A DNA stretch of 64,000 bases from Asterella californica (taxonomy: Eukaryota; Streptophyta; Marchantiopsida; Marchantiales; Aytoniaceae). The stretch is taken from assembly GCA_036924285.1 (NCBI GenBank), contig JAYKYS010000005.1, forward strand, positions 2,108,001 to 2,172,000, written 5' to 3'. Made by a program: the position numbers and the translations under genes. The first letter of the stretch is position 1; every line of letters begins with the position of its first letter. Positions 30,104 to 64,000 of the stretch are shown in pieces. Under the pieces are notes generated by a model. The model saw only the letters and a list, made by a program, of their open reading frames with translations. It ran no database searches and was not told where the DNA came from.

Positions 30104-30834
30104 TGTAGTGTCGTAGGATTACTCCTTTTGTCCATTTAGTATACAAGATATCGTTCTCACAGAGGATTTGCACAAGTAACGCTGCTCTAAGTTCTAAGAT
30201 CTGTTCAAACACACAAACACACGGGTTTTGTCTAGAAATCCCGTCTTCTCACAAAACCACGCGTCTTCCAGACTCGTCAAAAGGTGCTCTGGACCTAAAC
30301 CAACAACTACTAACTAAAATATCACACAACTATTCACAGAGAAGCTCGAGGAGACGCTTCTTGCTTCCAGGTCACTTCTTCCGGTCTTCTCAGTACCGTC
30401 TTCCCGAAGCAATTCTCGGCTTCTGGGGGTTCAACTCGGCTTCTCACACCTCCAGAAGATTGCTCCTGCTTCGCAGAAGTCGACTAGAATCGGCTGTTAC
30501 ACCTTACTCTCTCTCTCTCTCACATTCCAACGGATTAGATTAGTCACAAGGTGTATGCCCCCTGTAGCCTTCCTAGGCTTCTGCCTACAGAAACTGTCTT
30601 CCTGCAACACTACAACGACATTCACCTTCACGGAAGCTCAATAGAAGTCTCGGAAGCTCACTAGAAGAAGGTAAGAAGATGGAGAAGATGAGAGAAGATG
30701 GGGAAAGGGAAAATCCAAACCAGAGAAAAACAAGATAAGAATAAGAAATTAAGACTCCGACAGGCTTCTAGTCCGGATCCTGACTAACAAGCCATCCCTG
30801 CTTGTAATAGTTTGAGGAGGAAGACAACAAACGT

Positions 30835-32155
30835 TGTCAGGTTGAGAGTCTTCCTGGGAAGGGCGAACCTTCTGGCTGTGATATGAGCTTGAAGGCTGTG
30901 TTCAATCTACTCGGGGAAGCGTTGGGCTCTTGGCTGTGGCTGGTTTACTCACAGGATAGGCTTCAGGTCTCAAGGTGATACCGAAAAACACTCATATAAG
31001 TCTCTAAGCTCTTCTGATATGTTCACGAAGCAAGTTCAGACTTAACTAGCAATGATAAGATCAGATGGCGAACTTTGACACTCAAGATTGAGAAATATGT
31101 GAAGGTTCAGACTTCAGAACTCCTCCTACATGTAAATGAGGTTCTACTGGATACACATACGAAATTTCAGCTTCAGATCAATTCAGAGCACTAAGATATG
31201 AGCAGAAACTTTCTGAGTAGAGAAATTACGGCAGTTTCTGGTACCCAGACAGCTATTTCGACCTATAACAGGGAATTGGCTCAATCACTTTGGGAAATTC
31301 TTACAGGATTTGCAGTACACAGCTTGCTGAACACTCCTGTGAAGTTGGACCTCCTGATTCCACACAGAACTCCAGATCTCGCTCTCTGAAGTTGCTGCTC
31401 CAGATTAAGAGCTTTTCGGACCCCCTCTACTTCAGCGGTCGCCCTGAATTACTCATTGACTCAATTGACATGAAAATTTGGAGATAGTCGTAGCCCTGCT
31501 GACACTGAACACAGCCACGAAGTTTTGAAGCAATTTCCTCGATTCTGCTGCAAATGACACTCAAAATCCTAAATTCAACAGAAGTGCTACAATTCTTACA
31601 CAAATCGAACTTCAATCAGCCATAACTCCTTCTTTATTGCTCCAAATCGATCAAACTTTTCGCTGACAGTGCTTGGCTCGACGAGCTCTATCTCCCTGTG
31701 CTCTCAGATTTCGAAGTGCCTTCACAAATTGCTCGAAATCCCCTTTAGACCTCCGTTTCTAAATTTAGAGTTACACAAAAGACAAAAATGAACCAGTGAG
31801 AATTCATAGCTCCATTTGGTTGTCATTTTGTGTCTTAAACCATGTGGTAACTTATCTACACTCATAGGCTACCACGTCAAGCCCCCTAGAGTGCCAGCGT
31901 AAAACTTAAACTACCTAAAACGACACGCAGCTCCGATAAATAACTTAAATCAGCTAGAAAGCGTGCATGGGTGACACGCAAATACAACCCATGAGCTTAA
32001 GCCCTATCAACATGGTAATCAACCTGCCAAGACTCAAAATATATAACATCTCCCTAAAACGGACTTCTCTGAGGTCTTAACTTCACTCAAAGAGACTAAT
32101 GCCTGACAGAGAAGTGAATCATTTACTATGTGAAATGATTCACATCACGACAACA
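30835..32155 (-). mobile_element. Solo-LTR-like insertion, family S, copy 2
   Basis: About 1.32 kb, inverted relative to 3382-4711. On the minus strand it reads TGTTGTCGTGATGTG at 32155 and ends in TGACA at 30835. Sister giant LTRs show the uninterrupted target: caacaaacgtgagtac at about 44123 and again at about 53855. Here caacaaacgt is followed by the insertion and then by tgcgtacagttgc. The flanking five bases on each side share only cgt, so the duplication is decayed or was altered at insertion. No internal coding region. Confidence 0.82.
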
Positions 32156-32995
32156 TGCGTACAGTTGCACCGTCTTCTACTTGAGGATGTCGTCTTCTGC
32201 TGTGGGAAGAAGGCTTCTTTCTTTTCCTCTCGCTGCTCCGAGTACTCTGTCTTCTGAGATCCCTTATCTATAAGATCGTCCGTACGTAGATCCGAAGTGC
32301 TCTACTAGACGAGCCAAGCTGCGAATCTGCACAACTGCTGACAATCACCGTCACTCAAGAATAACGCTTCCCATGCACAATCGGGAGTGAATCCAAAGAA
32401 ATCCACCATCCAGAAGACACGGACAAAGCTTCTGCACTCAAATCAGCAATCCATTCCCCGAGAAGAAGTCACATTGGCATTGGGAAGCTCACTCCCTCTA
32501 CTTCCTGCTCCTACTCCTCGACACACCAGTCTAGCCAACAGGAATGCACGAGGATGCCGTTCCCTACTCCTAAACTGTCCACTACCTCTATCTACATCTT
32601 CGAACCACTGCTGGTAACGAACATGCAGACCCCTCCGGTATAATCCAAATCTATTCGTATGTCTCTAACATCGGGTGTAGTGTGTGTGCGCACAGTACAC
32701 AACAATGTACTTAGTGTGCCTCTCTTGTGTAGAATGTGTAATGTGTCATGTGTGTCCAAAATCTTACTCTTCGATCCTACTTATGCATCTGCCACAAGAA
32801 AACAGAGGGAACCACCACCAGGGAGAGAAAAGCTGCCCCTCCACATGCAAGCGGTTATCCCTTTCCTATTCTTGTGCTTCCTACACTGCCACATGGCTGC
32901 CTAACTAAATTTACACTAGAACTGCCACCCCTAAGATAGCATGTTCGGTTCTTTGCTAAGTTTGGAAATGTTAACTTGTCTCCTACGTTTGCTAC

Positions 32996-34520
32996 CTACT
33001 CTGATTGCTCGGAGGCAATCTCTACCTGATCTGCTCCTATCGGAACTACTAGCTCCGCTTCTGATAAGTTGAGAAGCCCTGCAATTACCTCAGGTGTCAC
33101 TGAGGTGGCTTCCTCCTCGACATTCGTCGCTGGCTCTGCTGCTGCTGTTTCGGCTTCTGCTTCTGCTTCGGAAGACGGAAGCGTCTTCTGGTAAGCTGGG
33201 TCGACTTGTGCTTCCTCGCTCTTCTGAGACACTAGTCCGACACTGAGAGCCATGGTGACCTCATAAGAGTCCGGAGAAGTCGCTTCCTCCACTCGGAATA
33301 CCTGAGAAGACAGTTCTTCTTCTTGTCTTCCAGAAGACATCTTGTCTTTCGGGGCTTCTTCCGGAGTCTTCTCGGCTTCCAACGCTGTCACTACCAAGTG
33401 GACAGCGAGGTCGAACTCCTCCTTCTCCAATTCGGATCCAGTCGATGGTGCTGGAGCTTGGGAAGATGTAGTTGCAGGTGGCAGAATCAAGAGAAGACCA
33501 TAGAGTGTCTTCACTCCCTCTATCTGCCGATCCAAATATCTGAACATGCTCTCCTTGCACTCTACCAATATCGTCTTGGACTCGTCGTTCCATTCTCTAG
33601 CTAAGGTAAGAAGCTTCCTACCCGCGGTGAAGTTGAACTTCTTCCGAAGCGCTTCCACCGACTGAGCTAACATCCCCTGCGCACGAGCTTCCGTTGCTTC
33701 CCGCTGCGTCTTCTCGGCTGCAGTCTGCGCTTCTGTGACTTCCCGCAGTGTCTTCCATGTCGTCCTCTCCTCTGCAAGGGCTATGATCTTATCCCGCACT
33801 CGCAGAACCTCCTGGTCATGCTGCTGTTAACGCGCCTGCAACTTCTGGTTGCTCTTCTTCAGCTGCGCTGACTCCTTGGCAGAAGCGGCTGCTTCCGTCT
33901 TGTACTTCGCTGCGAGCTTCTCTATGGTGCGGAGGTTGGCTTCCAGCGCTTCTACCTTCTTTTGGCCTTCTTCTTGCTGCATCAAGGTGCGCAGACCGAA
34001 TCCATGCTGTAGTGGCTTCTCCTGAGCCTTCGTTCTCTTCTCGATCAACTCCATAGCTGGCTGGATCTCTGAGTGGAAGAAGGCACTGAACTCTTCCAGT
34101 CTTCTTCTCGCGGAAGACAGACTCATCTCCACAATCCGATCGGAGGTGTCGACCTTGTCTTCCCGAGGCAAGGATGCCTCTTCCACCACTATGGTCTTCT
34201 ACTTCTGTGCGCGAGAAGAAGTTACTCTTCTCATCTTCCGAGGTGGAAGATCTCTCCTCAGGGCAGAAGCGGTCCTCTATACTGCGCTTCCTCGCATCGC
34301 AGTAGGAGTATCCATCCATCCTTCGTCTTCTGGAGTCTTCGGAAGACTCTCTTGTGTTGCAGAAGCGGTCTTCTGCGCAGCTCGGGTACTCAAGAACTCC
34401 TCCGGTGAGTCGGACTCCGACCTAGAGTGAATGATCGAGAAGGAGATGGTCTTCCTAGGCACGTTCCTAGGTGGTGTCGCGTCTTCCGATCCACTAGAAT
34501 CGTTTTCCCTCACCAGAAGC
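32996..34520 (-). pseudogene. LTR-borne ORF, C-terminal part, copy in LTR 1
   Basis: C-terminal portion of the ORF described under 45013-47351, on the minus strand. An open segment of 267 codons (33799-32996) contains KFNFTAGRKLLTLAREW, MFRYLDRQIEGVKTLYGL, FDLAVHLVVTALE and ends EIASEQSE. Upstream, in another frame, lies the coiled-coil part (KYKTEAAASAKESAQLKKS). The gene is cut from its N-terminal part by the gag-only element at 34540-40735. Additional frameshifts are present, for example a stop near 33830. Confidence 0.75.
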
Positions 34521-34658
34521 GTCTTCTGATGGGTACCGGTGTCGTGTCGGATATTGCGTGAAGGATGTCCACGAAAACTCGAGGTTCCTGACTGTGGAGA
34601 TGTTGTGTGCTGAAACAGAGACAAGATAGAGAAAAACAACCACGAAAATGAACGCTGC

Positions 34659-34668
34659 GATATATACC
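34659..34668 (-). promoter_or_regulatory. TATA box in the 3' LTR of the gag-only element
   Basis: The minus strand reads ggtatatatc about 120 bases before the LTR end. The identical sequence lies at the matching place in the other LTR. Transcription starting about 30 bases further on would leave a short R-U5 of about 90 bases. Confidence 0.5.
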
Positions 34669-36004
34669 AACTCCAAATGTATGTACACTGCCGGTTCTTT
34701 CTCCTAAGAACACAGAACTGAAAAAGAGACCAGAGCGGTCTATAACCTGCTTCAAAGTCCTTAAAAACAACCCCTGATTCTCAACCCTGACCCAAAAAAC
34801 ACCGAAGCGTAGCTCAAAGCAAGAAAAACTTCCCTTTGCTAACAAGCAGAGCCACAGCAGTATCACACGATCCAAACCCAAGTCCAAACCACATCCATGT
34901 ACAAGTTCTTAGCTAAAGCTAGCTACCACAAGCTGTATATAGCCAACCAGAACTCTAACGAACTCAAAAGAGCAAAACTCGTAGCGAAAAAACTGAAAAA
35001 GACCTATTTGTGAACTTCCTCCTTTCGCCGAACGGACTTCAAATGTCAATAGGGTCTCCTTTGCTGACTCCGTTAACCCAAGAAACCTTCAGATCCGACT
35101 CCCAACAGCAGAGATATTGCCGATTTTCGGTCGTAGGTGATCAAACCTTCAAAAACTCCTCCCTGCGGCTTAAAACCGCACACACCGCACAAACGGATCG
35201 TCTAAACTGATATCCGTCTTTCCTGGCAGAGAGATCTAGCTATCACGAACCCAATGAGACTCCAAACAAGTCGTTTGGAGTTCCCCTTGCAAAACCACGC
35301 AAGAAATTTGGTCGCAGGTTACAAAAAACTAACGTAAATGGACTCCCTGCGGCTCAAACTCGCTCACCTCGCCCAAACCAACAATCCAATTCACGTACGG
35401 TCTTCTCTTATGCGTAGATGAAGACTCCCTGATCACGTAGGCACCAAGAACGAAGAGCTTGGCACACCGATCGTGAAGAACAACCCAATTTTAGATCGTA
35501 GGCGAACAAAAATCTGACGTAAGCGCTTCCCTACGAGCCAATTTCACTCAAATCTCCTGAACCGCCCGATGAAACTTCGTATTGTCTTCAATTTCCTGTA
35601 GAACTCGGTGTTCTGATCCTGATGGATCCAAGGACAGCAAGTTTGGACTCGAGAACGGTCCGAACGGTCCAACTCTTCTTCACAGGTAACTGAAAACTCC
35701 AAAATTACTTCCTACGTCTCAATTTCTCTCAGTATGCATTCCCCGATCCATCTCTTCCAAAACCGTTTGAACCAGTGCGTAGCCTGCACAGATCTGAACC
35801 CAATGACGTCTTGCGCGCTTGCATTGGACTCCTAAATCTCCCGAACCGTCCGTTGACAAGTCGCAGACGCAAGCTAACTCCTAAGCTGCCCCCTTGTCAC
35901 AGTCTTTGTACGTACGAAGTTCTGTGATTAATAAATGAAGCAGGCCCCTTGCGTCTTTGATATAACGCCTGAAGCCTCAAATATCCAGTCAGCAAGTAAA
36001 CTAA

Positions 36005-36350
36005 GGCCTAACTTGATTTTTCCTTCTTTCGAATCGCATAACTTCTCCAGTAGATGTCCAAATGAAGTAGACAAGATGCCAATGAAAAGTTGACAACGAG
36101 CACTACCCATTGATGCGATGAAAGTGGAGATCTTAAGTTGCACCAAAAACCCATAAGCTGGGGCCTAGCTTGTTTTCTCCATCTTTCGAGTCCTGTAACT
36201 TCTCCACTAGACGTCCAAATGAAGTAGACGAAGTGCCTATGGAAAGCTGACAAGGAACTCTACCCATCTATGCAATGAAAATGGAGATCCAAAATGATGC
36301 CAAAAGTCAGTAAGCTAGGGCCTAGCTTGTCTTTCTCAAGAGTGTCTTTG
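36005..36350. repeat. 157-bp tandem repeat inside the LTR
   Basis: Units begin with ggccta-cttg at 36005, 36162 and 36319, a spacing of exactly 157 bp; the third is partial. Each unit runs through a cttctttcgaatc-type segment, tccaaatgaagtagac, ctacccat-atgc-atgaaa and ccaaaa. The other LTR repeats this at 40335, 40492 and 40649 with the same 157-bp spacing, and copy A has a decayed form. Confidence 0.85.
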
Positions 36351-36405
36351 GAGCGACAAGCATTGAAGTCTGAATTTCAGATAGCAGCCGGTCCACGACA
36401 CGACA

Positions 36406-36417
36406 TCCACCCCCTCC
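36406..36417 (-). other. Polypurine tract of the gag-only element
   Basis: The minus strand reads ggagggggtgga directly before the 3' LTR. This is the expected primer site for plus-strand DNA synthesis in LTR retrotransposons and fixes the element's direction as right to left. Confidence 0.7.
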
Positions 36418-37080
36418 AAACTTGTGCATCCTCCGATATGCACCAGAGATACCAACCAAGGAGTGGACCGGCACGCACTTCGTCATTCTCATCTTGTCAT
36501 CCCCCCTTCCATCTCAGTCAACCTCATCCCCAAGGTTGCAATCTGATCGTTATCTTGAAGTTGCAACTCTATCATGATCTTCCCTAGATCCATCTCATCG
36601 ACTTTCTTCTTCAACCTCCCATCCAATCACCCCCTCTAAATATCTACATCTTTGAAGCATAGAAGTAGTAAACCATCATACCATAGAAATGTCTTCCATC
36701 CGTCCTGTAGAACCTCACCGTCGAGGTTTGTGACCAAGTGTCGTAGTAGACATCCTCCATCTTGTCAATCATCACCCGTATCTTGACTGTAACCCTCAAC
36801 CTCAAGTCTGTACATGTCATCATACGTATCCAACTCTTCTTTTTTGTTTTCTGAAAAAAAAACCTCATTACTGCAACCAAAATCCTCAACCGCAACCATC
36901 ATTGTCTCGCTGTACAATGGTATCCTTCTCAACCATCATCCTCCATGATCTCTTCTTCTGAAAATCCTTACAACCTCCCATGCCTCATCCTCCTAATCCT
37001 AATCACATGTAAACTTTCACAACCTCTCAAGCATAATCACCTTCAGCAATGGCTTCTCCTCTGTAAGCCATCTTTACCCA

Positions 37081-38700
37081 TCATCCTATACCTGTAACCT
37101 TGAAAGCATCCATCCTCTCTCCTTCGCCCTCAGCATGTCCGTCCTTGATGAAGCTGATGTAAGCATCATGGACTTCCCTTGTAGTCGCATCCAAGACCTC
37201 CCGTGATAAGAACCCAATCTTCACATCTCGAATGCGCTCCTCCCAACCTCCCTTCGCATCCATCGACATAACCCCAACTCCAATATCTGGTTGTTGTTTG
37301 CATATAACCAGATCACCCATCTCCGCTATCTGCACCTCAACCATCTCCTCTGGTTGTGAAGGATCGTCCTCCATTGCCAGTTCAGGAAGGATAGTCTCCT
37401 GTTGAACCTTATCCTCCCCAGCTTGCTTCCTGAAGAAGTCTCTTCTTGTCCCTTCTTCTCGCTCTGCATCGTGGATGCAGTATCCAACTTGAGCTCGTTC
37501 GGATCCACATGCTCATCCAAATCATCCATATGGAGATCATGCTCAATCTCCTCCACCCTAGCATCATAACTTGTAGCTTCAATAGCTACAACTACATGTG
37601 CCGCAAAGTAATCATCCACAAACTTCTTCATCCCTCCTTTACCAAAGTTGGCTTGAAGGAGAGTACCCGTACTTGTGAATGCAACTTTTCCATCCTCCCA
37701 AGAAATTACTTCTCGTTGCAAAGACTCTGCGAAGTCGATGCAATCGTCCCGTTGATGATCAGTATCATCACACCACACGCACTGGTGTACCCAAGCTGGT
37801 TTGGGTACAAGTTGCATCTCAGTCGATGATCCTTTATCCTCCAACCTAGTAACCTTAACTTGTAGATCTTGCATCGTTTGCTGTAGGTCCTCGATGGTTG
37901 GATCCTTCTCCTCTACAAACGCAACTGGACATTGAATCTCAGATACTACCTGAACGGGTATGGTAGTCAGTGATACAGGTGTCAACCTTGTAACCCTTTT
38001 CTTTGTATGTCTCCTGACAAGAAGCTCAACCGCTTCATGTACAACCTCCAATTCCTTGTCAACCCTTTTTCTTCCTCCCCATCCTCCAAAAGTAGTTCCA
38101 ACCGCTCTTGCCATGGTTCATCAACAGCTTGAAGAAACAACTCTGTCTTGTAGGTCTCCAAGGTTAGCTTGTCCACCCTAGGTAGTTGAGAAAATTGTCT
38201 CTCGAACTCATTTAACAGCTCTATAGGCTGTAAACCCTTGCTGGATCGGTTGACTCATTCCAAAAATGATTTCTTGGTTACTCGATCTGAGTTTCTCAAG
38301 AAATACTCCTCCATCAACGCATGTGAAAATGTATCCCAGTTCCTCCCAAAACGCTTTGTTAGACCCTTCACATGCTCCCTTATCTCAGGCACCGCAACGA
38401 GTTCGAACGTCTCGATCATATCCTTCTCCGGTACCTGATCCAAATCCATCTACATCTTGTAACATCTCAAGTACTCAGAGATGTCTCTACCATCAAAAAG
38501 ATCGAACTTGTCGATCACCCTTCCAAGCGCCTTCTTCCCCAAAGCCTCCTTTTGTTGGTTCTCTTGCTCTTGTCGCATAAACAAAGTGAAGGCCTGAAAC
38601 AATCGTGCAGTTGCTGCATCCAACTACATCCTTGGTATACCCTCTGATCCGTCCATCCCATCCATAGTCATGGCTCGTCCCATCCTCCCATCCTCCCATC
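37081..38700 (-). pseudogene. Gag of the gag-only element (broken)
   Basis: Retrotransposon gag, the shell protein that packages element RNA. Reading right to left, a frame opens near 38650 with LFQAFTLFMRQEQENQQKEA and FDLFDGRDISEYLRCYKM, then hits TAG just before 38449. It resumes with VPEIREHVKGLTKRFGRNW, hits TGA near 38252, and continues through ELLNEFERQFSQLPRVDKL. Near 38060 a frameshift moves it into the frame 38114-37326, which carries a CCHC zinc knuckle, CVWCDDTDHQRDDC. A second frameshift near 37400 leads to the acidic tail ending at 37081. So two stops and two frameshifts. Confidence 0.85.
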
Positions 38701-38848
38701 CTCCCATCCTCCCATGATCCCAACTGTCTACATATCCATCATCCCAAGTCCACAACATCCTCCCGAACAACCAAATCCATCTTCATCCTGGTTCATGATT
38801 GTTGATCTCTTCTACCCAGTTCAAACACACAGATCTCCACCCCGAACT

Positions 38849-38867
38849 TTCACCTCGAGTTCACCAC
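38849..38867 (-). other. Possible primer binding site
   Basis: Just inside the 5' LTR (which ends at 38871 on the minus strand) the sequence reads tcgg then tggtgaactcgag. A primer binding site normally begins TGG and lies within a few bases of the LTR. The matching tRNA was not identified, so this is a positional guess. Confidence 0.35.
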
Positions 38868-38870
38868 CGA

Positions 38871-40735
38871 TGTCGTGTCGGATATTGCGTGAAGGATGTC
38901 TAGGAAAATGCGAGGTTCTTGGCTGTGGAGATGTTGTGTGCTGAAACAGAGACAAGACAGAGAAAAACAACCATGAAAATGAACGCTGCGATATATACCA
39001 ACTCCAAATGTATGTACACTGCCGGTTCTTTCTCCTAAGAACACAGAACTGAAAAAGAGACCAGAGCGGTCTATAACCTGCTTCAAAGTCCTTAAAAACA
39101 ACCCCTGATTCTCAACCCTGACCCAAAAAACACTGAAGCGTAGCTCAAAGCAAGAAAAACTTCCCTTTGCTAACAAGCAGAGCCACAGCAGTATCACACG
39201 ATCCAAACCCAAGTCCAAACCACATCCATGTACAAGTTCTTAGCTAAAGCTAGCTACCACAAGCTGTATATAGCCAACCAGAACTCTAACGAACTCAAAA
39301 GAGCAAAACTCGTAGCGAAAAAACTAAAAAAGACCTATTTGTGAACTTCCTCCTTTCGCCGAACGGACTTCAAATGTCAATAGGGTCTCCTTTGCTGACT
39401 CCGTTAACCCAAGAAACCTTCAGATCCAACTCCCAACAGTAGAGATATTGCCGATTTTTGGTCGTAGGTGATCAAACCTTCAAAAACTCCTCCCTGCGGC
39501 TTAAAACCGCACACACCGCACAAACGGATCGTCTAAACTGATATCCGTCTTTCCTGGCAGAGAGATCTAGCTATCACGAACCCAACGAGACTCCAAACAA
39601 GTCGTTTGGAGTTCCTCTTGCAAAACCACGCAAGAAATTTGTCGCAGGTTGCAAAAAACTAACGTAAATGGACTCCCTACGGCTCAAACTCGCTCACCTC
39701 GCCCAAACCAACAATCCAATTCACGTACGGTCTTCTCTTATGCGTAGATGAAGACTCCTTGATCACGTAGGCATCAAGAACGAAGAGCTTGGCACACCGA
39801 TCGCGAAGAACAACCCAATTTTAGGTCGTAGGCGAACGAAAATCTGACGTAAGTGCTTCCTTGCGAGCCAATTTCACTCAAATCTCCTGAACCGCCCGAT
39901 GAAACTTTGTATTGTCTTCAATTTCCTGTAGAACTCGGTGTTTCGATCCTGATGGATCCAAGGACAGCAAGTTTGGACTCCGGAACGGCCCGAACGGTCC
40001 AACTCTCCTTCACAAGTAACTGAAAACTCCAAAATTGCTTCCTACGTCTCAATTTCTCTTAGTACGTACTCCTTGATCCGTCTCTTCCAAAACCATTTGA
40101 ACCAGTGCGTAGCCTGCACAGATCTGAACCCAACGACGCCTTGCGCGCTTGCATTGGACTCCTAAATCTCCCGAATCGTCTGTTGACAAGTCGCAGGCGC
40201 AAGCTAACCCCTAAGCTGCCCGCTTGTCATAGTCTTTGTACGTACGAAGTTCTGTGATTAATAAATGAAGCAGGCCCCTTGCGTATTTGATATAACGCTT
40301 GAAGCCTCAAATACCCAGTCAGCAAGTAAACTAAGGCCTAGCTTGATTTTCTCTTCTTTCGAATCACATAACTTCTCCAGTAGGTGTCCAAATGAAGTAG
40401 ACAAGATGCCAATGAAGAGTTGACAACGAGCACTACCCATTGATGCGATGAAAGTGGAGATCTGAAGTTGCGCCAAAAACCCATAAGCTGGGGCCTAGCT
40501 TGTTTTCTCCATCTTTCGAGTCTTATAACTTCTCCACTAGACGTCCAAATGAAGTAGACGAAGTGCATATGGAAAGCTGACTAGGATCTCTACCCATCTA
40601 TGCGATGAAAATGGAGATCCAAAATGATACCAAAAGTCCGTAAGCTAGGGCCTAGCTTGTCTTTCTCATGAGTGTCTTTGGAGCGACAAGCATTGAAGTC
40701 TGAATTTCAGATAGGAGCCGGTCCACGACACGACA
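38871..40735 (-). mobile_element. 5' LTR of the gag-only retrotransposon
   Basis: 1865 bp, near-identical to 34540-36405, with the same terminal TGTCGTGTCG and CGACACGACA. A TATA-like ggtatatat lies on the minus strand at 38990-38998. It holds the same 157-bp tandem units. Differences from the 3' LTR are scattered substitutions and single-base indels, consistent with moderate age after insertion. Confidence 0.93.
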
Positions 40736-40749
40736 CCGGGTCTCATCTG

Positions 40750-44500: not shown

Positions 44501-45012
44501 ACTGCACGAGGATGCCGTTCCCTGTTCCTAGACTGTCCACTACTTCTATCTACATCTTCGAATCCATTGCTGGTGCGAGTATGCAGACCCCTTCTGTATA
44601 TTCCAAGACTATTCGTATGTTTCCAACAACGGGTGTAGTGTGCTAAGACTGTCTCTGCTCTAATGTGTCTCGTCTGCCTGCCTGTAGAATCGATGTGTAT
44701 GTTCAGTTACGACAGAATTCTACAGAACTGGCAAAACTGGCAGAGCTCCATTTCCTACTCTACGATCCTACTTAACCATCTGCCTCGAGAGTCAGGGGAG
44801 GCGACCACCAGGGAGAGAGAGAGAGGCACTGGCAAGAGGTTGTCACCTCACATACATACGGTCCCTCTTCCCAATTAGCCCTCCACTGTGTTAAATCCTA
44901 CGCTACCTATGCTGCCACATGGGGTCCTAACTATTTTTACATAGAAAACTGCCACCCTTAAGATAGCATATCCGATCCTACTAAATCTGGAAGTGTCGAT
45001 TAAGTTTGCTAA

Positions 45013-47351: not shown

Positions 47352-47399
47352 GCACCTACTATGAGCTGAAGGCTCAGTTCTTCCCGAGTGCCCACAGTC

Positions 47400-49352
47400 T
47401 AGCTTCTACTTCTCAGAAGACGAAACTAGTCTTCTAGAAGACAGCTACTCCGTCTTCCGGGATTCTAACAGTACTTCCTAGATAGCTCTCGTCTTCCGGG
47501 CTATATCTAAACAATCCTATCTACGCAAGGCCTCGCATGGATTACCAAGAAGACAACCCACCTTGCATTACATCCTACTTCCTATCAGAAGATACAAGAT
47601 ATGCGAGAAGTAGAGTATGAGAAAGGTTCAGAAGATGGTTGCGGGCTCCTGCGGTGACAGTGGCCTCTGGGAAGACACTTGGGACAGCTTCCGATTCAAT
47701 GTCGTTCTCGGAAGACTTCTCGAAGTCGGACTTCCCTTCACTGGTCTCACCTGTCTTCGTCTTCCTACACGCAACCTATCCTCATAACAGACTCAAGACA
47801 ACTATACTCTGTTCTTCTGACTTCTCACCTCTCATACGCACTCAGAAGAAGCTTGCTGCATGATGGGAAGACATGACCCTCGACCATTCTCTCCAGATTC
47901 TGCCAGCAAGACTTCTCACAACTCTCTTCTAAGTTCGGGAAGAAGAAGGAACGGTTGCTATGGGTCGGACAGAAGAGACCAGAAATGGACCCTCACGTCT
48001 TCTCGCTCATTTTGCCAGCCTTCCAGTCTTCTAGTCTCTCTAGGAAGATGGGGAGTTGAGAAGCTTGGAAGACCGGGAGGCACAGACCTAGTTCCCGACT
48101 TCCAACTTCTCGAAATAACAAAACAACTCACCAAGCCACTCAGGATTCGTACCAAACCTCTCTAAACACAAAAGCAAAGCAAATCCACTCTCGATACGAA
48201 TTGTGTTCAGTCGACTTCCGAAGACAGTCTTCCGAAGATGTCTTCCGAAGACAGTCAAGTTCAAGAAGTGTCTTCCGAAGATGTTCCCATCTTCCGAATC
48301 GTCTTCTGTTCCAAGTTTCGGGGATAGAGAGGTAAGGGGGTAGAGAAATTGATAGTTGGGGTCTCCAATTTGAGGGCTAGGAGTAGGGAAGCTCGAATTG
48401 AGCTCGGGAAGAAGCAAGGAGATGTCTCGACAGAAATTGGGCAGCGCTTCCGCGTCCAATGTCTCAATAGAAAGAATGGGGGTGGGGTAATCGATCAGGC
48501 TGCCTGCACACAATCAAGGAAGCGCGGGGAGTACCAAGAAAAGACGAGAAGAAGTGGGAGGGGAAAAGAACAGGGGGAAGAACCTCTACAGTCTTCTTCG
48601 GCTCCCCGAGTTGCCTTCGACCTCCGCGCACTTCTGGCTCTTGTCCTAGTTCCAATGCGACTCCACACGACTGCACCTGCTGTCAATTTCGGTCCACACC
48701 TCGATTCCACCTCTGCTTCTACTCGCCACTCTTTACTGTCAGCTTCTCGGAAGCTCCACAGAAACGCCTTCGCTTTCTCTGCTGTTTGTGCTCCCGCAAT
48801 TCAATCTCACCCTTCGCCTAGCTGCCAACTTACTCTCTCCTACCTCGATGTCTCAATTGATTCCTCTCTCAATGCTAGTTCGCGAAGCTCACTCTCTCAA
48901 TCGATCTTCTTCAGGTGCGCTATGCTGCGGGAAGTTGGAAGGTGTCTAATGTGCTTCCTCACGCATCTTCCCCGCAGATTAGGGTTTCTCGTCCTTGGTG
49001 TCTTCCTGACCTACCTCCCTATTCGGTGCGCTCCAGTAGGTACACCTACTGTCTTACCCGAAAACTCGTGGTTGGTCCTTCGCGGTCGCTGTCTTCTGGA
49101 AGATAGGTGTCTTCCGCCGTCTTCCCATCTTCTGCCGTCTTCTCGTCTTCTGAAGACGCCACTGAGAAGACGATCTTCCGAAGACGGTCGTCTTCTGAAG
49201 AAGTCAACTTCTTATTACAAACAGCTCTTAAGATCATCTTCCTGTTAAGGAAGACGTAACCTTAAGTAACAACGCTTCTTCAGTTATACAAACAAGTCAT
49301 TATTCTTAAAAATTTCAAAAATTCGTGCTTCCTGTAATTTGTGGGCACCACA
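47400..49352. other. Non-coding right part of the solo LTR
   Basis: This is LTR sequence between the ORF and the LTR end. It is rich in GTCTTC/GAAGAC, most densely at about 49085-49205. A plus-strand frame of 299 codons (48349-49248) is present but is not conserved in the sister LTRs, where it is broken, so it is not called a gene. Confidence 0.6.
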
Positions 49353-49524
49353 CGACTTCTTATTACAAAAAGATCGTAAGATCATCTTCCTTCATCATCT
49401 TCTAAGGAAGCCGTAATCTTAAGTAACAACGCTTCTTCAGTTATACAAACAAGTTATTAAACTTAAAAATTTCAAAAATTCGTGAATCCTGTAAATTGTG
49501 GGCACCACATACGCCCACCCTCAC

Positions 49525-49546
49525 ATGTTTGCATCCCCGCAAACAT
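49525..49546. other. Stem-loop between pol and LTR, element A
   Basis: Perfect 8-bp stem atgtttgc (49525-49532) with gcaaacat (49539-49546) and a six-base loop. It lies 15 bases from the LTR end and is conserved in element B. On the minus strand the stretch gtgagggtgggcgta follows it and precedes TGTGGTG, so this is also the likely polypurine tract region. Confidence 0.6.
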
Positions 49547-49566
49547 CGGCGCTTCAGCACTTCTGT

Positions 49567-50260
49567 TCACGTCCAGTACTTCTTGACACGCCACCCATTT
49601 ACACGAGTGGTCATCAACGTACCATCTAATTCTTCCAACTGCAAGGAGCCATTGGTGAAGACCTCCAAGATGCGATAAGGATCCATCCAGCGAAGATGAA
49701 GTTTCCCAGGGAACTTAAGATGTCGATTGTCATAGAGAAGAACCAAGTCCCCATCTGTGACGGTCACCTTCTTCAGCTTGCCATCATAGTTCACCTTACG
49801 TTGCGCTTGTACTTCGTACGTCTTCTCCAAAGCTGCATTCCTGTCTTCTTCGAACTCTACAAAGTTCAGAAGACGTTGCTCATGGCTTTCCTCTTCTTCC
49901 ATGCGTTCAGTTACGGCTAACCTGTAAGTAGGGACCTCTAACTCGATGGGCACAATAGGTGTCATGCCATAAGTTAGGTAGAAGGGTATCTTCTGGGTTG
50001 TGACTTTGGGTGAAATCTTGAAAGCTCATAACACAGATGGCAATTTCGTGTCCCAATCATACGCATGGTTAACAGTTATCTTATTCAGGATATTACATAG
50101 AAGACCATTGGACTTTTCTGTCAGTCCGTTAGCTTTCGGATTGTACGGCGTTGTCTTCCGATGCTTTATCTTGAAGTATTGGGTCAGGAGAGAAATAGTC
50201 TCATTTAAGAAATGAGTACCCCTATCTATATCAATTCCAGCGGACATCCGTATCGAGTGA
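49567..50260 (-). pseudogene. Gypsy integrase, C-terminal and core part, element A
   Basis: The minus strand encodes the integrase end: an ISLLTQYFKIKHRKTTPYNP segment with the NPKANGLTEKSN box that carries the catalytic glutamate, a middle part with LTYGMTPIVPIELEVPTYRL (after stops), and the C-terminal LVLLYDNRHLKFPGKLHLRW with GPY-like DPYRIL, ending VKKYWT. Stops occur between 50026 and 49966. The frame changes at the join with the upstream integrase core near 50270, where a base appears lost relative to element B. Confidence 0.85.
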
Positions 50261-51130
50261 TAATGTTGTGCCAGAGAACCTGGCTACCACTGCGGCGTCG
50301 TTCTTCCTTGTGGCTTCGACTTCCACCATCTTGGTAGCATAATCGGTAGCTATCAAAATATACCTTGCTCGTGTTCTCTTAGCCACCGGGACGATAAGCC
50401 CAACAAAGTTGATTCTCCATTTTTCAAAAGGAGCAAGCAGAAAAATGGGAGTAAGAGGCCACCTAGTAGTAGCTGTTGGTCTTCCCACCCTCGGACACGC
50501 ATCACATTTCCTGATCTCCTGAAAAGTGTCTCTGTACATGGTCGACCACCAGTATCCGGCGTCCAACATCTTCTTCACTATAATCTTTAGCCCGTAGTGA
50601 CCCCCAACATCTTCGTAGTGAAGACCCGTGATCACTGGCTTATTCTCTGAAGACTCAAGGCATCTCCTTAGCTTCTCGTCATGTCCCTTCCTAAACAAGA
50701 TACCCTGGAAGATGACATAGGGACATGCCTTGTGTAAGAAGACAGCCTTTTGCTCCGCATCCAATCCCTCGAGATACTGTTGGTCTTCCAAGAACTTCTT
50801 CAAGTCCTTGAAGATCGATTCTTCTGTGGAAGTCGTAAAGACTGGATCAGAAGATCTAGTCTCGTCTTCTGGGAAGCAAGCGATACGCCCCCCCTCAGAT
50901 GAAAGTGTCTCTGCGAAAACTGAAAACAGCTTTTCGTCAAGGAACTCGTCTTCTGGGAAGCAAGCGGTACGCCCCCCCTCAGATGAAAGTGTCTCTGCAA
51001 AAACTGAAAACAGCTTTTCGTCAGGGAACTCGTCTTCCACTTCATCTTCTCATCGTTCCGTCTCCAATCTGGATAGTAGTCAACATTAACATGCTGTCTT
51101 CCAGGGCTGTACTCAACTGTGTAAGTAAAT
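50261..51130 (-). pseudogene. Gypsy RNase H end, linker and integrase zinc/core start, element A
   Basis: The frame 51040-50231 reads an acidic linker, then FLHKACPYVIFQGILFRKG, the HHCC integrase zinc-binding region (GLHYEDVGGHYGLK followed by CDACPRVGR), and the integrase core start (INFVGLIVP and IATDYATKMVE with a catalytic aspartate). In element B the first core motif reads IDFV, so the D is changed to N here. The linker contains an 84-bp tandem duplication absent from element B. Confidence 0.85.
50861..51028 (-). repeat. 84-bp tandem duplication in the pol linker
   Basis: Units 50861-50944 and 50945-51028, both starting ctcgtcttctgggaagcaag on the plus strand, differ at only a few bases. 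84 is 28 codons, so the frame is kept. The peptide is a DEKLFSVFAETLSSEGGR-type segment. Element B has one copy. Confidence 0.92.
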
Positions 51131-52290
51131 TCCTAGAGTAGAAGAATCCACCTAGCTATCCTTCCAGACAAATCTGCTTTCTTCACAAGATGTTTTAAAG
51201 AAAAATGATCCACATAGAAGACAAACGGGTTGGTTAGAAAATAGTGCTTAAACTTCCTACAGGAGTAAATCATGCCAAGACAGTCCCTTTCAGTTGTAGA
51301 GTACTTCTTCTCTGCATCACTGAGTTGTCTTCCCGCATAGTAGATGGGATAATCCTTCTTCTTCTCATCTTTCTGACTCAATACCACCCCTATGGCGAAA
51401 GCAGAAACATCCACATAAATATGGAAGACTCTCTCTCAATCAGGTGGTCTTAGGACATGGGATTCTGACAGAAGACTTTTCATGTCTTCGAATGCTTCCT
51501 GCTGCTCAGAAGACCAAATGTAAGGTTTGTCCTTCTTCAGCAACTTGGTAAGTCTTCCTGCTACCTCTGCGTACATGTCAATAAACCTCCTGTAGTATCC
51601 TACGTTGCCCAAGAAGCTTCTCAACTGAGTCAGGTTAGCAGGTGGGTGGAGTTTCATGATGACTTCCACCTTAGCACAGTCGACTTCTATATCTCTTCCA
51701 GAAATCCTATGTCTTAGCAAAATTCCCTTTGACATACCAAAGAAGCACTTCTCAGGGTGAAGAGCCAAACAATGTTCTCTACACTTCAAAAAACACTTCC
51801 TTAGAAATATCAGGTGGTCTTCTTTCGATCCAAACACACAAAAATCATCCAAGAAGATCTCCATGAAAGTACGAAGATACTCCTTGAAGATTGTAATCAT
51901 CAATCTCTGAAATGTGACGGACGCGTTGCATAAACAAAACGGCATTTGATTGTATTCATATGTGTCCCAATCAGTAGTGAAAGTGGTTTTCGACTTGTCT
52001 TCTTCTCTGATTGAAACTTGGTTGTACCCAGAATACTCATCCATGAAGCTGTAGAACTCATGTCCTGCTACCTGGTCTAACACAGAATCGGTGAATGGTA
52101 AAGGATGATGATCCTTTTTCGTGGCCAAGTTCAGCTTCCGGAAGTCCTGACACACTCGGATCTTACATGTCTGCTTCTTCGGCACGATGACAATAGGAGC
52201 TACCCACTCACTACTAAGTACTGGGAAGATGACTCCCGTCTTCAGATATTGATCGATCTGGTCCTTCACCAGAAGCGAGTACTTGGGGTT
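51131..52290 (-). pseudogene. Gypsy reverse transcriptase and RNase H, element A
   Basis: Chromovirus/Tat-like RT on the minus strand. Frame 52269-51436 carries YSGYNQVSIREEDKSKTTF, TDWDTYEYNQMPFCLCNA and the catalytic FLDDFCVFGSK (DD present, with FLDD in place of the usual YVDD), then LTQLRSFLGNVGYYRRFI. RNase H follows in frame 51414-51133 with VDVSAFAIGVVLSQ-type and YYAGRQLSDAEKKYSTTERD. In-frame stops: TAG near 52301 (CAG in B), TGA near 51434 (TGG in B) and TAG near 51131 (CAG in B). All three are C:G to T:A changes. Confidence 0.92.
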
Positions 52291-52299
52291 GAGCCGATA

Positions 52300-53127
52300 C
52301 TACCTCTGTCGTGCAGGAACAACGCCTTCCAGCAAGTCAATGCAATGCTTTTCCAACTCTCGAGGCATGCCCTTCATGTCTTCTATGGTCCACGCGAAGA
52401 CATCCTGGAACTCTGTCAAAAGTTCTCTAAAGTCTTCCAACTGTTGGCCCTCGATCACCTTGGAAAGCTTCAGCTTCTTCCCAGGAGTAACCTCAATTTC
52501 TTGAAGATCATCCGGGTTTACCATTCCTTCAGTGTGACTGTACTCACTGGCACCAAAGTATTCCGGTTTGGGAGCTTCTTCTGGTTCAGATTCGTCTTCT
52601 GGAAGACCAACTGTCAGATCTTCTGAAGGGAAGACGGTACTTTCGTCTTCTGGAAGCTCTTCTTTCGCAACTTCGTAGCACTCAATGTATCCACAGATCA
52701 CTTCCTCTGCTATCTATGTTACTTCTGTAGTACACAAGTTATTCACCACAAAGTCATTGTATGGTTCATCCATGTCAAAAGACGCCGCTGAGTCTTCTGA
52801 AGTGTACCCCTCTGTCGTAGAAGGAGTTTCACCTTGGTGTTTAATCTTGATCCAAGGAAGCGAGACCTTGGTCTTCTCACCTGGATTGGGTGTAGGATTG
52901 AGAAATCGCAAACGATGTCTTCTCCAATCGGTATTTACATTTGCAGCATACAGCCATGGTCTTCCTATCAACATCTGATATCCAACCCTAGCTACAGGTA
53001 CTGAGGTAAAAAGATACTCCCCCAATTACCGTCAAGACATCTTTCAGTTGCCCCAAAGGTCGTCTTCTGGTCTGCTCTGCCATTCTGAGGATTCTCGGAG
53101 TAGGCTCGAACTCAGTGAAACCTAGGG
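52300..53127 (-). pseudogene. Gypsy protease end and protease-RT linker, element A
   Basis: From the junction at 53127 the minus strand reads TLGFTEFEPTPRILRM and then, after a deletion near 53000 that changes frame, VGYQMLIGRPWLYAANVN, the end of the aspartic protease region. A linker with acidic PEDES repeats follows, then HTEGMVNPDDLQEIEV and EDFRELLTEFQDVFAWTIED, the lead-in to RT. A TAG lies near 52711. The protease active site itself would be on the other side of the element B insertion. Confidence 0.88.
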
Positions 53128-56100
53128 TGTAGTGACGCAGGATGACTCCTTTTGCCCATTTAGTATACAAGATATCGTTCCCACAGAGGATTTGCACAAG
53201 TAACGCTGCTCTAAGTTCTAAGATCTGTTCAAACACACAAACACACGGGTTTTGCCTAAGAATCCCGTCTTCTCACAAAACCACGCGTCTTCCAGACACT
53301 CCAAAAGGTGCTCTGGAACTAACCAAACAACTACTAACTAAAATATCACACAACTATTCACAGAGAATCTCGGGAAGATGATCTTCCTGCTTCCAGGTTA
53401 CTTCTTCTGGTCTTCTCGATACCGTCTTCCTGAAGCGATTCTCGTCTTCTGGAGATTCGGCTCGTCTTCTCACACCTCCAGAAGACTATCCTGCTTCGCA
53501 GAAGTCGACTAGCACGGCTGTTACACCTTACTCTCATACTCGCATTACAACGGGTTAGATCAATCACAGGGTGTATGCCCCCTGTAGCCTTCCCAGGCTT
53601 CTGCCTACAGAAACTGTCTTCCTGCAGCACTACAACGACATTCACCTTCACGGAAGCTCAATAGAAGTCTCGGAAGCTCACTAGAAGAAGGTAAGAAGAT
53701 GGGGAAGATGAGAAAAGATGGAGAAGATGAGAAAATCCAAACAAGAGAAAACAAGATGAAAAGAAGAAATTAAGATTCCGACAGGCTTCTAGTCCGGATC
53801 CTGACTAACAAGCCATCCCTGCTTGTAATAGTTTGGCGAGGAAGACAACAAACGTGAGTACTGTTGCACCGTCTTCTACTCGAGGATGTCGTCTTCTGCT
53901 TACACTGAGAAATTGCCACCCTTAAGATAGCATGTTTGTTCCTACTAAACTGGGAGTGTGTCACTTCGTTTACTATCTACTCTGATTGCTCCGTGGCAAT
54001 CTCTACCTTATCTGCTCCTATCTGAGCTCCTAACGCGGCTTCTGATAAGCTAGAAAGCCCTGCAATTACCTCGGGTGTCACTGAGATGGCTTCCTCCTCA
54101 TCGCTCTTCGCTGACTCTGCTGTTGCTACGGTTGCGTCTTCCTCGGCTTCGGCTTCTGCTTCGGAAGACGGAAGCGCTTTCTGGGAAGCAGAGTCGAGTG
54201 ATGCGTCTTCGGTCTTCTGAGGCACGGGTGCGGTACTGGGGACCATGGCGATCTCATAGGGGTCCGGAGAAGTCGCTTCCTCCACATGGAATACCTGGGA
54301 AGACGGCTCGTCTTCCTGTCTTCCAGAAGACATCCTGTCTTCCGGGACATCTTCCGGAGTCTTCTCGGCTTCCAACGCTGTCACGACCAAGTGCACAGCG
54401 AGGTCGAACTCCTCCTTCTCCATTCCGGATCCAGTAGATGGTGCTGGAGCTTGAGAAGATGCAGTTGCAGGTATCGGAAGCGAGGGAAGACCATAAAGTG
54501 TCTTCACTCCCTCTATCTGCCGATCCAAGTACCTGAACATGCTCTCTCGGCATTCCACCAACATTGCCTTGGACTCGCTGTCCCATCCTCTAGCTAAGGT
54601 AAGTAACTTCCTATCCACGGTGAAGTTAAACTTCTTCCGAAGCGCTTCCACCGACTGTGCTAACATCTCCTGTGCACGAGCCTCCGCTGCTTCCCGCTGC
54701 GTCTTCTCAACTGCAACTCGCGCTTCTGCGTCTTCCAGGTGGTCTTCTCCTCTGCGAGGGCGGTGATCTTCTCCCGCACTCGGAGGACCTCCTGATCGCG
54801 CTGTTGTACACGCGCCTGTATCTCCTGGTTGCTCTTCCGAAGTTGCACCAGCTCCTTGGCAAAAGCGGCTGCTTCCGTCTTGTATCTGGCTGCGAGCTTC
54901 TCCGTGGTGCGGAGACTAGCTTCCAGCGACTCCGTCTTCTTCTGGTCTTCTTCCTGTCGCAGCAAGGTGCGCAGACCGAATCCAGGTTGCAAGGGCCTCT
55001 CCTGTGCCTTCGCTCTCTTCTCCAGCAACTCCATAGCTGGCTAGATCTCCTTGTGGAAGAAGGCGCTGAACTCTTCCAGTCTTCATCCTGCGGAAAACAA
55101 GTTCATCTCCACTACTCGCTCTGAGGTGTCGACCTCGTCTTCCAGAGGCAAGGAAGCCTCTTCCACCACAATGACCTTCATCTTCTGCGCACAAGAAGAA
55201 GCTACTCTTCTCATCTTCCGGGGTGGAAGATCCTTCATGGCAGGAGCGGTTCTCTTCACTGCGCTTCCCCGCATCGCAGTAGGAGTATCCCTTCTTCTCT
55301 TGTCTTCTGGAGTCTTCAGAAGACTCCAGGTGTTGCAGAAGCGGTCTTCTGCTCCGATCGGGTACTCAGCAGTTCTTCTTCCGAGTCGGACTCCGATCCT
55401 GAATGAATGAGGGAGGTGGGCTTCCTAGATACACTTCTAGGACACATCTTCCTCGGTGGCGTGGCGTCTTCCGACCCAGTAGACTCGTCTTCCATCACCA
55501 GAAGCGTCTTCTGGTGAGAGCCGGGTCTCAGCTGTGACATCAGAGTGGGAGGGGGAGTTGCGGCTGCTGCGGCTGCTGCTCGGTCATCGTCTTCTGAGGT
55601 CTCCTCCTTCACCTCCTGTTGCCCTGTTGGTCCATACTCTGCCAGCTGATCTCTCCTAAGATCCCCCATGGCTACGTACAAGTAGCAGAGGAAAGGTGTC
55701 AAGTGTTCTCTCGCCGGGGTATCCAAGTACGCTAGCTCCGTCTGTACATAGTTGTGGACGTATGCGCCCCAGTAGATGGGTACTCTGGTATCCCACACTG
55801 CTTCCAGGAACTCTACGTCCTGATCTCCCAGGTACCTCGTCTTCTGCGCTTTCCCCTTGAGGAAGAGATGCAGAAACAGCTTCGCCAGAAGTCGCTTCTT
55901 CGGCTCCCGGTAAGATTCGATCTTCCACCCATACCTACCCTACCTGTCTTCCATGAAAAGACAAGTGGTGCTCCCAGGCACATGCCACGCGCTCATGACC
56001 CTAGGCAAAATCTTCTTCTCAAACCAGTACCCTCGGTCCTCGGAGTCTGACCTGTGAAAAGCCCTGCGCCATCAATCTTCAGTCCAGGAAGATGATCTTC

Positions 56101-58278
56101 CTCGAGCTACTCCTGCCTTCGCATGTACACGGTTGCGAGGTGGTAACGCTGCCTACACCTCCTCTAGAAGTCCTTGGTCTGCGAGGTTCCAATCCCATAG
56201 GAAGAAATCGAGACCCAACTCCTTGAGGAAGGGCGTGGCCTCGGCCAACTCCGCTGCTGGTAACACCAACCCTCGAGGATGCATCGTCATACTGGAAGAT
56301 CTGTTGCACTAAGCCACAATCACCTACTATGAGCTGAAGGCTCACTCCTTCCCAAGTGCCCACAGTCTAGCTTCTACTTCTCAGAAGACGAAACTAGTCT
56401 TCCAGAAGACAGCTACTCCGTCTTCCGGGATTCTAACAATACTTCCTAGATAGCTCTCGTCTTCCGAGCTATATCTAAACAATCCTATCTAAGCAAGGCC
56501 TCGCATGGATTACCAAGAAGACAATCCACCTTGCATTACATTCTACTTCCTATCAGAAGATACAAGATTCGCGAAACATAAAGTGCATAACAGGTTCGGA
56601 AGATGGTTGCGGCTCCTGCGATGACAGTGGCCTCTGGAAAGATACCCGGGACAATTTCTGATTCCATGTCTTTCTCGGAAGACCTCCCGAAGTCAGGCTT
56701 CCCTTCACTGGTCTCACCTGTCTTCGTCTTCCTACGCGTAATCTATCCTCACAGTAGACTCAAGACAATTGCACTCTGTTCTTCTGACTTCTCACCTCTC
56801 ATACACACTCAGAAGAAGCTTGCTGCTCGGTGGGAAGACATGACCCTCGACCATTCTCTCCAGATTCTACCAGCAAGTCTTCTCACGATTCTCTCCTAAG
56901 TTTAGAAAGAAGAAGGAATGGCTGCTATGGGTCGGACAGAAGAGACCCGAAATGGACCCTCACGTCTTCTCGCTCATTTTGCCAGCCTTTCAGTCTTCTA
57001 GTCTCTCTAGGAAGATGTGGAGTTGAGAAGCTTGGAAGACCGGGAGGCACAGGCCTAGTTCCCGACTTCCAACTTCTCGAAATAACAAAAGAACTCACCA
57101 CACCACTCAGGATTCGTACCAAGCCTCTCTTAACACAAAAGCAACACAAATCCACTCTTGATACGAATTGGTTACAGTCGACTTCCGAAGACAGTCTTCC
57201 GAAGATGTTCCAATCTTCCGAAGCGTCTTCTGTTCCAAGTTTCGGGAGGAGAGGAGTAATCAGGTAGGAAAATCGATAGCTGGGATCGTCAATTTGAGGA
57301 CGATGGGCAGGGAAGCTCGAATTGAACTCAAGAAGAAGTAGGAAGATGCATGACAGAAATTGGGCAGCGCTTCCGCACCCAATGTCACAATAGGAAAAAT
57401 AGGGATGGGGGGGTAATCGATCAGGCTGCCTGCAACCAACCGGGGAAGCGCGGGGGATACCAAACAAAGGCGAGAAGAAGTGGGAAGGGGAAAGATCGTG
57501 GGAAGAACCTCTACAGTCTTCTTCTGCTTCCCGAGTTGTCCTCGACCTTCCACGCGCTTCTGGCTCTGATCCCTGCTCCAATGCGATCTCACTGAGCTGC
57601 GTCTGTCGCCAGCTCCTGTCTACGCCTCAATCGATTGAGCCACCCACCTCCGATTTCACTCAGCTGCTTCCAATGTCAGCTTCCGGAAGATTCTCAGGAA
57701 ACGCGTTTCACTCAATATGCTTCCTGCACTTCAGCAATTCGACCTCGCCTTCTTGCTAGCTTCTAATCGCTATGTCCTCACTCAATTTCTCCTTGCTGAT
57801 TTCTTCACTCGAAGCTCACCTCGCTGATTTTGATCTTCTGAAGGACGTGCTTGCTGCGAGAAGTTGGAATGCGCTAATGCGCTTCTTGCGCATCTTCCCC
57901 GCAGATTAGGAGTTTCGACCCTATGTGACTTACCTAACCTACGTACTTGTTTGATGCAACCCAGTAGGTACAACTACTCCTTTACTGAAAAAGCCGTGGT
58001 TAGGCCTTCGCGGTCGCTGTCTTCCGGAAGATGGATGCCTTCTGCCGTCTTCCCGTCTTCCGCCGTCTTCCGTCTTCCGAATACGCAACTGAGAAGACAC
58101 TCTTCCAAAGATGGTCGTCTTCCGAAAAGTCAACTTATTATTACAAACAACTCGTAAGATCATCTTCTTGTTAAGGAAGACGTAACCTTAAGTAACAACG
58201 CTTCTTCAATTATACAAACAAGTTATTATTCTTAAAAATTTCAAAATTTCGTGAATCCTGTAATTTGTGGGCACCACA
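53128..58278 (-). mobile_element. Giant 3' LTR of gypsy element B
   Basis: 5151 bp, plus-strand ends TGTAGTG (53128) and CACCACA (58278). It is collinear with the solo LTR except for a deletion of roughly 0.8 kb near 53898, where gtcttctgct runs straight into a segment matching the solo LTR near 44940. Its left end cuts element A inside the protease region, with flank taggg; the matching flank should lie beyond the window. Its right end adjoins the pol end of element B. Confidence 0.85.
53977..56363 (-). pseudogene. LTR-borne ORF, copy in element B
   Basis: Third copy. The C-terminal 229 codons are open (54666-53977; KFNFTVDRKLLTLARGW, FDLAVHLVVTALEAEKTPED, ending ATEQSE). The coiled-coil part is in 55034-54660 and the folded part in 55798-55316 (VPIYWGAYVHNYVQTELAYL) and beyond, with GYWFEKKILP where the solo LTR has a stop. 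Stops lie near 55950 and 55043, and frameshifts near 54690, 55310 and 56170. The repeated retention of the same protein in all LTRs suggests it was once functional. Confidence 0.72.
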
Positions 58279-58293
58279 TACGCCCACCCTCAC

Positions 58294-58315: not shown

Positions 58316-58336
58316 CAGTGTTTTCTGCACTTCTGT

Positions 58337-63997: not shown

Positions 63998-64000
63998 CTG

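Follow-up and report, generated by a model that had tools for sequence, protein, structure and literature searches.

A complete protein gene inside a long terminal repeat (LTR) is known from sag of mouse mammary tumour virus (MMTV), which lies downstream of the polypurine tract (PPT), reads in the gag-pol sense and is doubled in each provirus. The common view of plant LTR retrotransposons is that they depend on host transcription factors and, once reduced to solo LTRs, no longer have coding capacity. VANDALs, the other system of interest here, are DNA transposons. For VANDAL21 and VANDAL6, one report describes a short motif that is enriched in one family of transposable elements (TEs), rare in other TEs and bound by the TE-encoded protein VANC; protein and motif co-evolve, and the motifs are mainly non-coding and often arranged as tandem repeats (PMC5735166). 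A survey assigns the additional open reading frames (ORFs) of plant elements to the internal region, in most cases between pol and the 3' LTR (PMC7264820), and some of their proteins are described there and in a second source as nuclear or as having DNA-associated domains (PMC7264820, PMC11963269). Here we describe a 64,000-nucleotide stretch of the liverwort Asterella californica (hereafter the window; C419:2108001-2172000 of the 516.7-Mb assembly G000) that contains three blocks, all of them 5-6 kb LTRs of one Ty3/gypsy family and each with the same gene. With a probability of roughly 45%, we read the product of this gene as a nuclear, dimerising, sequence-specific regulator that would bind the hexamer GAAGAC, dispersed throughout the family, and would keep the element transcribable in trans.

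Long terminal repeats that contain a gene

An earlier note, made from the letters of the window, had described three collinear blocks with the character of LTRs and of a solo LTR. Self-comparison of the window and reading of the boundaries, from which the block limits were taken, bear this out, with all three blocks in minus-strand sense; the LTRs, interiors and genes of the family given below are all on that strand. Between about 28 and 64 kb, the window consists of elements nested in one another, of which A and B share the minus-strand sense and B sits inside the pol region of A. Three insertions split the 3' LTR of element A (LTR1, 30104-49509). One is a 1.3-kb repeat at 30835-32151 and another a second LTR element at 34540-40735; the third, a solo LTR belonging to the family itself (LTR2, 43384-49352), lies about 150 bp from the end of LTR1. 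The interior of element A (49510-53127), with pol fragments, ends at 53127, where element B inserted, and the 3' LTR of element B (LTR3) follows at 53128-58278. A length of about 5.9 kb had been proposed for the blocks, which fits LTR2 (5969 bp) but not LTR3 (5151 bp), the latter being about 0.8 kb shorter, chiefly through a stretch missing after the ORF. LTR2 and LTR3 are 84% identical across a 4.46-kb aligned stretch, and LTR1 is 79-91% identical to them when measured in pieces; this likeness is far beyond chance.

The lone block, LTR2, has TG...CA ends and a near-perfect 5-bp duplication (caact/cgact, one mismatch), as first noticed. Element B is flanked on both sides by a perfect duplication, TAGGG, at 53123-53127 and just outside its 5' LTR beyond the window. 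That 5' LTR, sought past position 64000, was found at C419:2172858-2187646, where it is reached after 857 further bases of an interior that occupies 58279-64000 in the window and totals 6579 bp. It contains the ORF block and matches LTR3 with 95.6%, 92.4% and 95.7% identity in three aligned pieces, interrupted by a 9-kb gypsy insertion that cuts the ORF block. Beyond it, element A resumes at its break point in the window; the 5' end of element A also bears an LTR, followed by a further interior of the family, and arrays of the form LTR-interior-LTR-interior exist in this family. A polypurine-tract-like sequence, GAGGGTGGGCGTA (58279-58291), identified as the PPT by its position, lies directly upstream, in the sense direction, of the 3' LTR of element B. 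In further copies, described below, a primer-binding-site (PBS)-like sequence adjoins the LTR on its other side, or a PPT precedes it. Because these two sites fix the LTR boundary, the ORF does not belong to the interior; an interior position would have undone the original proposal.

The 9-kb insertion (C419:2176450-2185397; L003-L005, about 4450-13397 of the joined 30 kb) is a different gypsy-like element with a single 1636-aa stop-to-stop frame, and it lies inside the ORF of the element B 5' LTR.

Ends were also read in ten further copies, all drawn from the 18 copies with long open frames described below. In copies 2, 5 and 8 the LTR runs straight into a PBS-like leader, TATAGTGAGGAACC...TTGGC(G/A)C; their outer LTR start was diverged or not found. 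Copy 4 begins directly behind the polypurine stretch GAGGGTGGGCGTA and the end of pol, and a PPT before the LTR was also seen at L068. Perfect duplications, gggag and caaag, flank copies 1 and 3, which are solo LTRs. Copy 9 has an interior on neither side and lacks a matching duplication, and copies 6, 7 and 10 look nested or have one end that could not be resolved. On contig C1, two ORF-bearing LTRs, 98.9% identical across an ORF-centred 4281 bp, surround an interior of 6.7 kb that has a PBS-like site at one end and a PPT at the other. They belong to a row of three ORF-bearing LTR copies on one strand, about 12.5 kb apart (G000:C1:37553927-37580218), whose first interval had its junctions checked; this suggests an LTR-interior-LTR-interior-LTR array like that beside the window.

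That the blocks might instead combine interior sequence with short LTRs, or represent an unrelated transposon, is refuted by the element B 5' LTR with its ORF block and perfect duplication, by block ends that directly meet the PBS-like site and the PPT, by solo copies with perfect duplications, and by the C1 element, in which, as in element B, the same block stands at both ends. In addition, the window self-comparison, which covered matches >150 bp, revealed no direct repeat joining the two ends of one block. We therefore give that alternative almost no weight.

The interior of element B identifies the family as gypsy. A gag ORF (63008-63811) matches Retrotrans_gag. Of two pol ORFs, the first (60750-62438) has a weak, sub-cut-off aspartic protease match and the start of the reverse transcriptase (RT), recognized by eye, and the second (59040-60749) contains RT, RNase H and an integrase zinc-binding region. 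The order is thus protease, RT, RNase H, integrase, with gypsy-type RT, RNase H and integrase, the protease and integrase-core matches being weak and below cut-off. The best pol relatives contain RT, RNase H and mostly integrase, the closest being gypsy proteins of another liverwort, Riccia sorocarpa (63%). The PBS-like sequence TGGCGCCGCTGCCGGGG resembles the tRNA-Asp site of Athila/Tat elements. No match to a second RNase H or a chromodomain was found in the element pieces scanned. Extra ORFs and large non-coding regions are shared with the non-chromovirus OTA (Athila/Tat) clade of gypsy elements (PMC6317226), a likeness of features.

Selection on the LTR gene and the predicted protein

An ORF of about 780 codons on the minus strand had been ascribed to each block. 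It is present in each, in the gag-pol sense, starting some 2 kb inside the LTR; in the open genomic copies it comprises 770 codons from the ATG. Stops, and in part frameshifts, disrupt each of the three window copies. The LTR3 copy (53977-56290, ATG at 56290) has five in-frame stops plus frameshifts, and that of LTR2 (45013-47321, ATG at 47321) has one TGA at codon 89 and a frameshift. In LTR1 the 5' part (40736-41498) is broken, and the 3' part (32996-34539) retains its final 276 codons open (32996-33826).

Upstream of the ORF, a stretch of LTR2 at about 1155-2000 in the sense direction (window ~47350-48200) is conserved as much as the ORF or more (0.85-0.96 in 200-column bins of the LTR2/LTR3 alignment); it may be a promoter, an intron or an untranslated leader.

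Intact copies were found elsewhere in the genome. Of 12,271 candidates at first look, 97 copies were scored, 18 of which have a stop-to-stop frame of 792-800 aa with no stop in the matched part (one, L021, ends one codon early). Among the 30 best protein matches of the 97 (L006-L035, including the window's own copy, L006), a set in which well-preserved copies are over-represented, five (L007, L009, L020, L025 and L032) are open through all 770 codons. The predictions that the gene would be doubled in each element and would survive in solo LTRs both held: there are two copies in a full element and one in a solo LTR, and the solo copies 1 and 3 of the end-checked set (L007 and L020) are open. 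A search with the LTR1-type protein yielded 140 scored copies besides itself, with 79-91% protein identity; these form an older subfamily.

The ratio of nonsynonymous to synonymous substitution rates (dN/dS) is far from the neutral value that would have spoken against a functional gene. Skipping codons with stops or gaps, as also for the natural copies, the window pairs gave 0.26 (confidence interval 0.20-0.34), 0.28 and 0.32, with substitutions mostly at third codon positions; identical columns read in the two other frames gave 0.86-1.25. Values were lowest in the N-terminal 225 codons (0.14-0.23) and highest in the acidic tail (0.46-0.70, with one confidence interval extending past 1). Between the two subfamilies, open stretches of natural copies gave 0.21-0.36; within the older one they gave 0.23 and 0.45. 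For the young subfamily, variants were counted in 28 copies (L012 and L017 were dropped from the 30 loci for low identity and gaps). Those present in 3-25 of the 27 others had a ratio of nonsynonymous to synonymous polymorphism (pN/pS) of 0.20 and no stops, and those in two copies 0.43 with 5 stops; for variants confined to a single copy the figures were 0.50 and 24 stops. Choosing loci by protein score favours preserved copies but does not alone yield this contrast between shared and private variants, which shows that selection has kept the protein in transposing lineages and that decay follows insertion. The lack of any known homologue would suit a host gene fragment captured passively in the LTR and without a role for the element; purifying selection in two subfamilies makes such a history very improbable.

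The protein had been described as a folded N-terminal part, a coiled coil and an acidic tail. The latter two stand, the models of the N-terminal part being of low confidence. AlphaFold of the full length (mean predicted local distance difference test score (pLDDT) 40) supports a long coiled coil, with predicted helices at 381-600 and pLDDT mostly 50-84 in this block. It is preceded by a basic stretch (residues 336-380, pI 12.0) and followed by the acidic tail (residues 641-770, pI 4.1); the N-terminal part has a net charge of about 0.

Neither profile searches, which had been proposed from the start, nor sequence searches recognized a family. The read-through N-terminal/coil piece had no homologue at E up to 0.001 (7996 protein candidates scored), nor did region 1-240 of an open natural protein at E up to 10 (1898 candidates). 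PDB sequences gave no match, and pairwise blastp against the element's gag and pol pieces and the gag-like ORF of the second LTR element gave only E 2 or worse. In the second of two Pfam scans the protein's only hit was Tup_N (E 0.26), on the coiled coil.

GAAGAC sites and the proposed regulator

The hexamer GAAGAC/GTCTTC is dispersed over both strands of the family's parts between 30104 and 64000, with 61 sites in LTR1, 80 in LTR2 (13.4/kb) and 66 in LTR3 (12.8/kb), and 37 and 46 in interiors A (10.2/kb) and B (8.0/kb). It is 12-20 times denser there than in window 1-28000 (0.68/kb), and is similarly sparse in the second LTR element (1.1/kb) and in L001 and L002 (0.9/kb). Counts outside the family are near the means of dinucleotide shuffles (19 versus 18.1 in window 1-28000 and 7 versus 5.0 in the second LTR element), whereas the two non-coding parts of LTR2 contain 32 sites versus 2.7 and 14 versus 1.5. 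The open LTR ORF of L007 holds 36 sites, where synonymous shuffles average 12.8. None of 1000 synonymous shuffles reached the observed count in two open LTR ORFs and both pol ORFs, and 12 of 1000 did so in the gag ORF; the excess in coding DNA is therefore not due to the protein sequence. Sense sites in the LTR ORF fall in all three frames.

Sites are also conserved. Counted in one direction, 58 of 73 are kept from LTR2 to LTR3 and 58 of 66 from LTR3 to LTR2 (0.50 for all hexamers), 25 of 33 from LTR2 to the 5' part of LTR1 (0.36), 9 of 10 from interior B to interior A (0.52) and, in pol, 20 of 20 (0.66).

The proposed regulator would draw these observations together. Made from full or solo LTRs, it would act in trans; its layout of N-terminal part, basic patch, coiled coil and acidic tail would be that of a putative nuclear dimer; it would bind GAAGAC along the element, in coding and non-coding DNA alike; and binding might counter silencing or activate transcription of family members. 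Such a protein would be the LTR-retrotransposon equivalent of VANC anti-silencing or of the trans-activators of retroviruses. We are more tentative about a broader version, in which the LTR is a self-contained regulatory cassette for a DNA-binding anti-silencing or trans-activating protein, and the hexamer target of that protein has accumulated across the element, a VANC-type arms race invented independently. If so, the regulator would be supplied from solo and full LTRs scattered throughout the genome and would protect family members in trans.

Several observations weigh against a regulator of this kind. One Pfam scan returned nothing for the protein at E up to 5, leaving no domain match. The structure prediction that had been called for delivered the coiled-coil model but no usable N-terminal fold (pLDDT 38 for the N-terminal part with 18 natural rows). 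Neither LTR2 nor LTR3 has a TATA[AT]A[AT] match on its sense strand. Between LTR2 and the 3' part of LTR1, conservation of sites is modest (16 of 28 kept versus 0.33), and between LTR2 and the 5' part the coding sites are poorly kept, with tiny counts (4/7 and 0/2, each pair counted both ways). Sense sites outnumber antisense sites about twofold, in LTRs and interiors, and the overlapping purine-rich hexamers GGAAGA and AGAAGA are also enriched, with conservation of 0.74 and 0.72.

The last two points leave room for a role at the RNA level or for a broader GAAGA preference. GAAGAC could then act in RNA, as a packaging signal or a purine motif resembling a splicing enhancer, with the LTR ORF encoding a nucleic-acid-binding accessory to gag. 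We consider this unlikely: in non-coding LTR DNA, where each pair was counted both ways, antisense sites are conserved almost as strongly as sense sites (20/25 versus 48/51 for LTR2/LTR3, and 18/22 versus 28/31 for LTR2/LTR1), and inverted pairs GTCTTC-N(1-2)-GAAGAC recur, both as expected for double-stranded recognition.

A stronger competitor, slightly less probable in our view than the cassette, is that the ORF is an accessory (additional-ORF or env-like) gene, acting for instance as a chaperone, in movement or in particle assembly through its predicted coiled coil, with GAAGAC bound by an unrelated host factor. Plant gypsy elements often bear extra ORFs of obscure function beside the 3' LTR (PMC7264820), and the Pfam scans recognized no DNA-binding domain in the LTR protein. 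What speaks against it is suggestive only: the basic stretch and acidic tail, and the restriction of the motif density to the family among the sequences compared, including the 9-kb insertion, in which GAAGAC is not among the top hexamers.

A heat-shock-element reading seems less likely: TTCnnGAA is raised (10 and 8 in the LTRs versus 8 across window 1-28000), with no such rise for GAAnnTTC (0 and 1 in the LTRs), and the former is probably a by-product of paired GAAGAC sites.

As to how the gene came to lie in the LTR, the position of the PPT upstream of it makes one origin likeliest: an accessory ORF once located downstream of pol would have been taken into the LTR when plus-strand priming shifted to a PPT further upstream. 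If transcription starts beyond the gene, the gene would lie in U3 and, on the genomic RNA, would be placed like the accessory ORFs of other plant elements.

Neighbouring features and comparison with known systems

The second LTR element inserted in the element A LTR (34535-40735) has 1.87-kb LTRs that are 96% identical, and its longest frame (37326-38117) is gag-like, with a CX2CX4HX4C motif seen by eye and no Pfam family; it is probably non-autonomous. Its LTR has a diverged relative at 28148-29751. The 1.3-kb repeat occurs twice in inverted orientation (3383-4716 and 30830-32154, 82% identical), with one copy in the element A LTR. Beside the retrotransposon nest, 21008-21748 is a host-gene exon with a match to RNA polymerase III subunit RPC5 (Pfam E 4.6e-38); an open frame on the same strand at 15766-16782, without a Pfam match, is at a guess another exon of that gene. 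Rfam and tRNA scans of the window gave no matches.

The family shares an extra conserved gene on the pol-distal side with elements bearing an env-like ORF between pol and the 3' LTR (aORF-3S) and with Grande gene23 and Retand ORF4 (PMC7264820, PMC11963269). As described, however, those genes lie in the internal region, whereas here the PPT and the LTR start separate pol from the ORF. A search of titles and abstracts in a collection of open-access papers, with the phrases we used, returned no gene encoded in a plant LTR and no anti-silencing factor of an LTR element. Solo LTRs of this family can retain an open, selected gene, so that the solo fate would not end an element's influence.

The VANC system is similar in having a dense, family-specific short motif in a TE (PMC5735166). 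It differs in that the motif here is dispersed through coding and non-coding DNA, and in that binding has been demonstrated for VANC (PMC5735166), whereas here it is putative. The domains also differ: VANC proteins contain DUF1985/DUF287, to which the LTR protein has no Pfam match at E up to 1, which places it outside that family by this measure. A VANC-like mechanism is a working analogy, not a statement of family membership. Should the gene indeed recognize the hexamer, an LTR element would have a sequence-specific regulatory system encoded by the TE itself, and one could test directly how protein and motif coevolve.

With MMTV sag this family shares a complete gene that lies wholly within the LTR, here demonstrably under selection. 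Sag belongs to an animal retrovirus and encodes an unrelated protein, whereas the present case is a plant gypsy element with a 770-aa gene and a conserved DNA motif along its whole length. An ORF inside an LTR has a precedent in sag.

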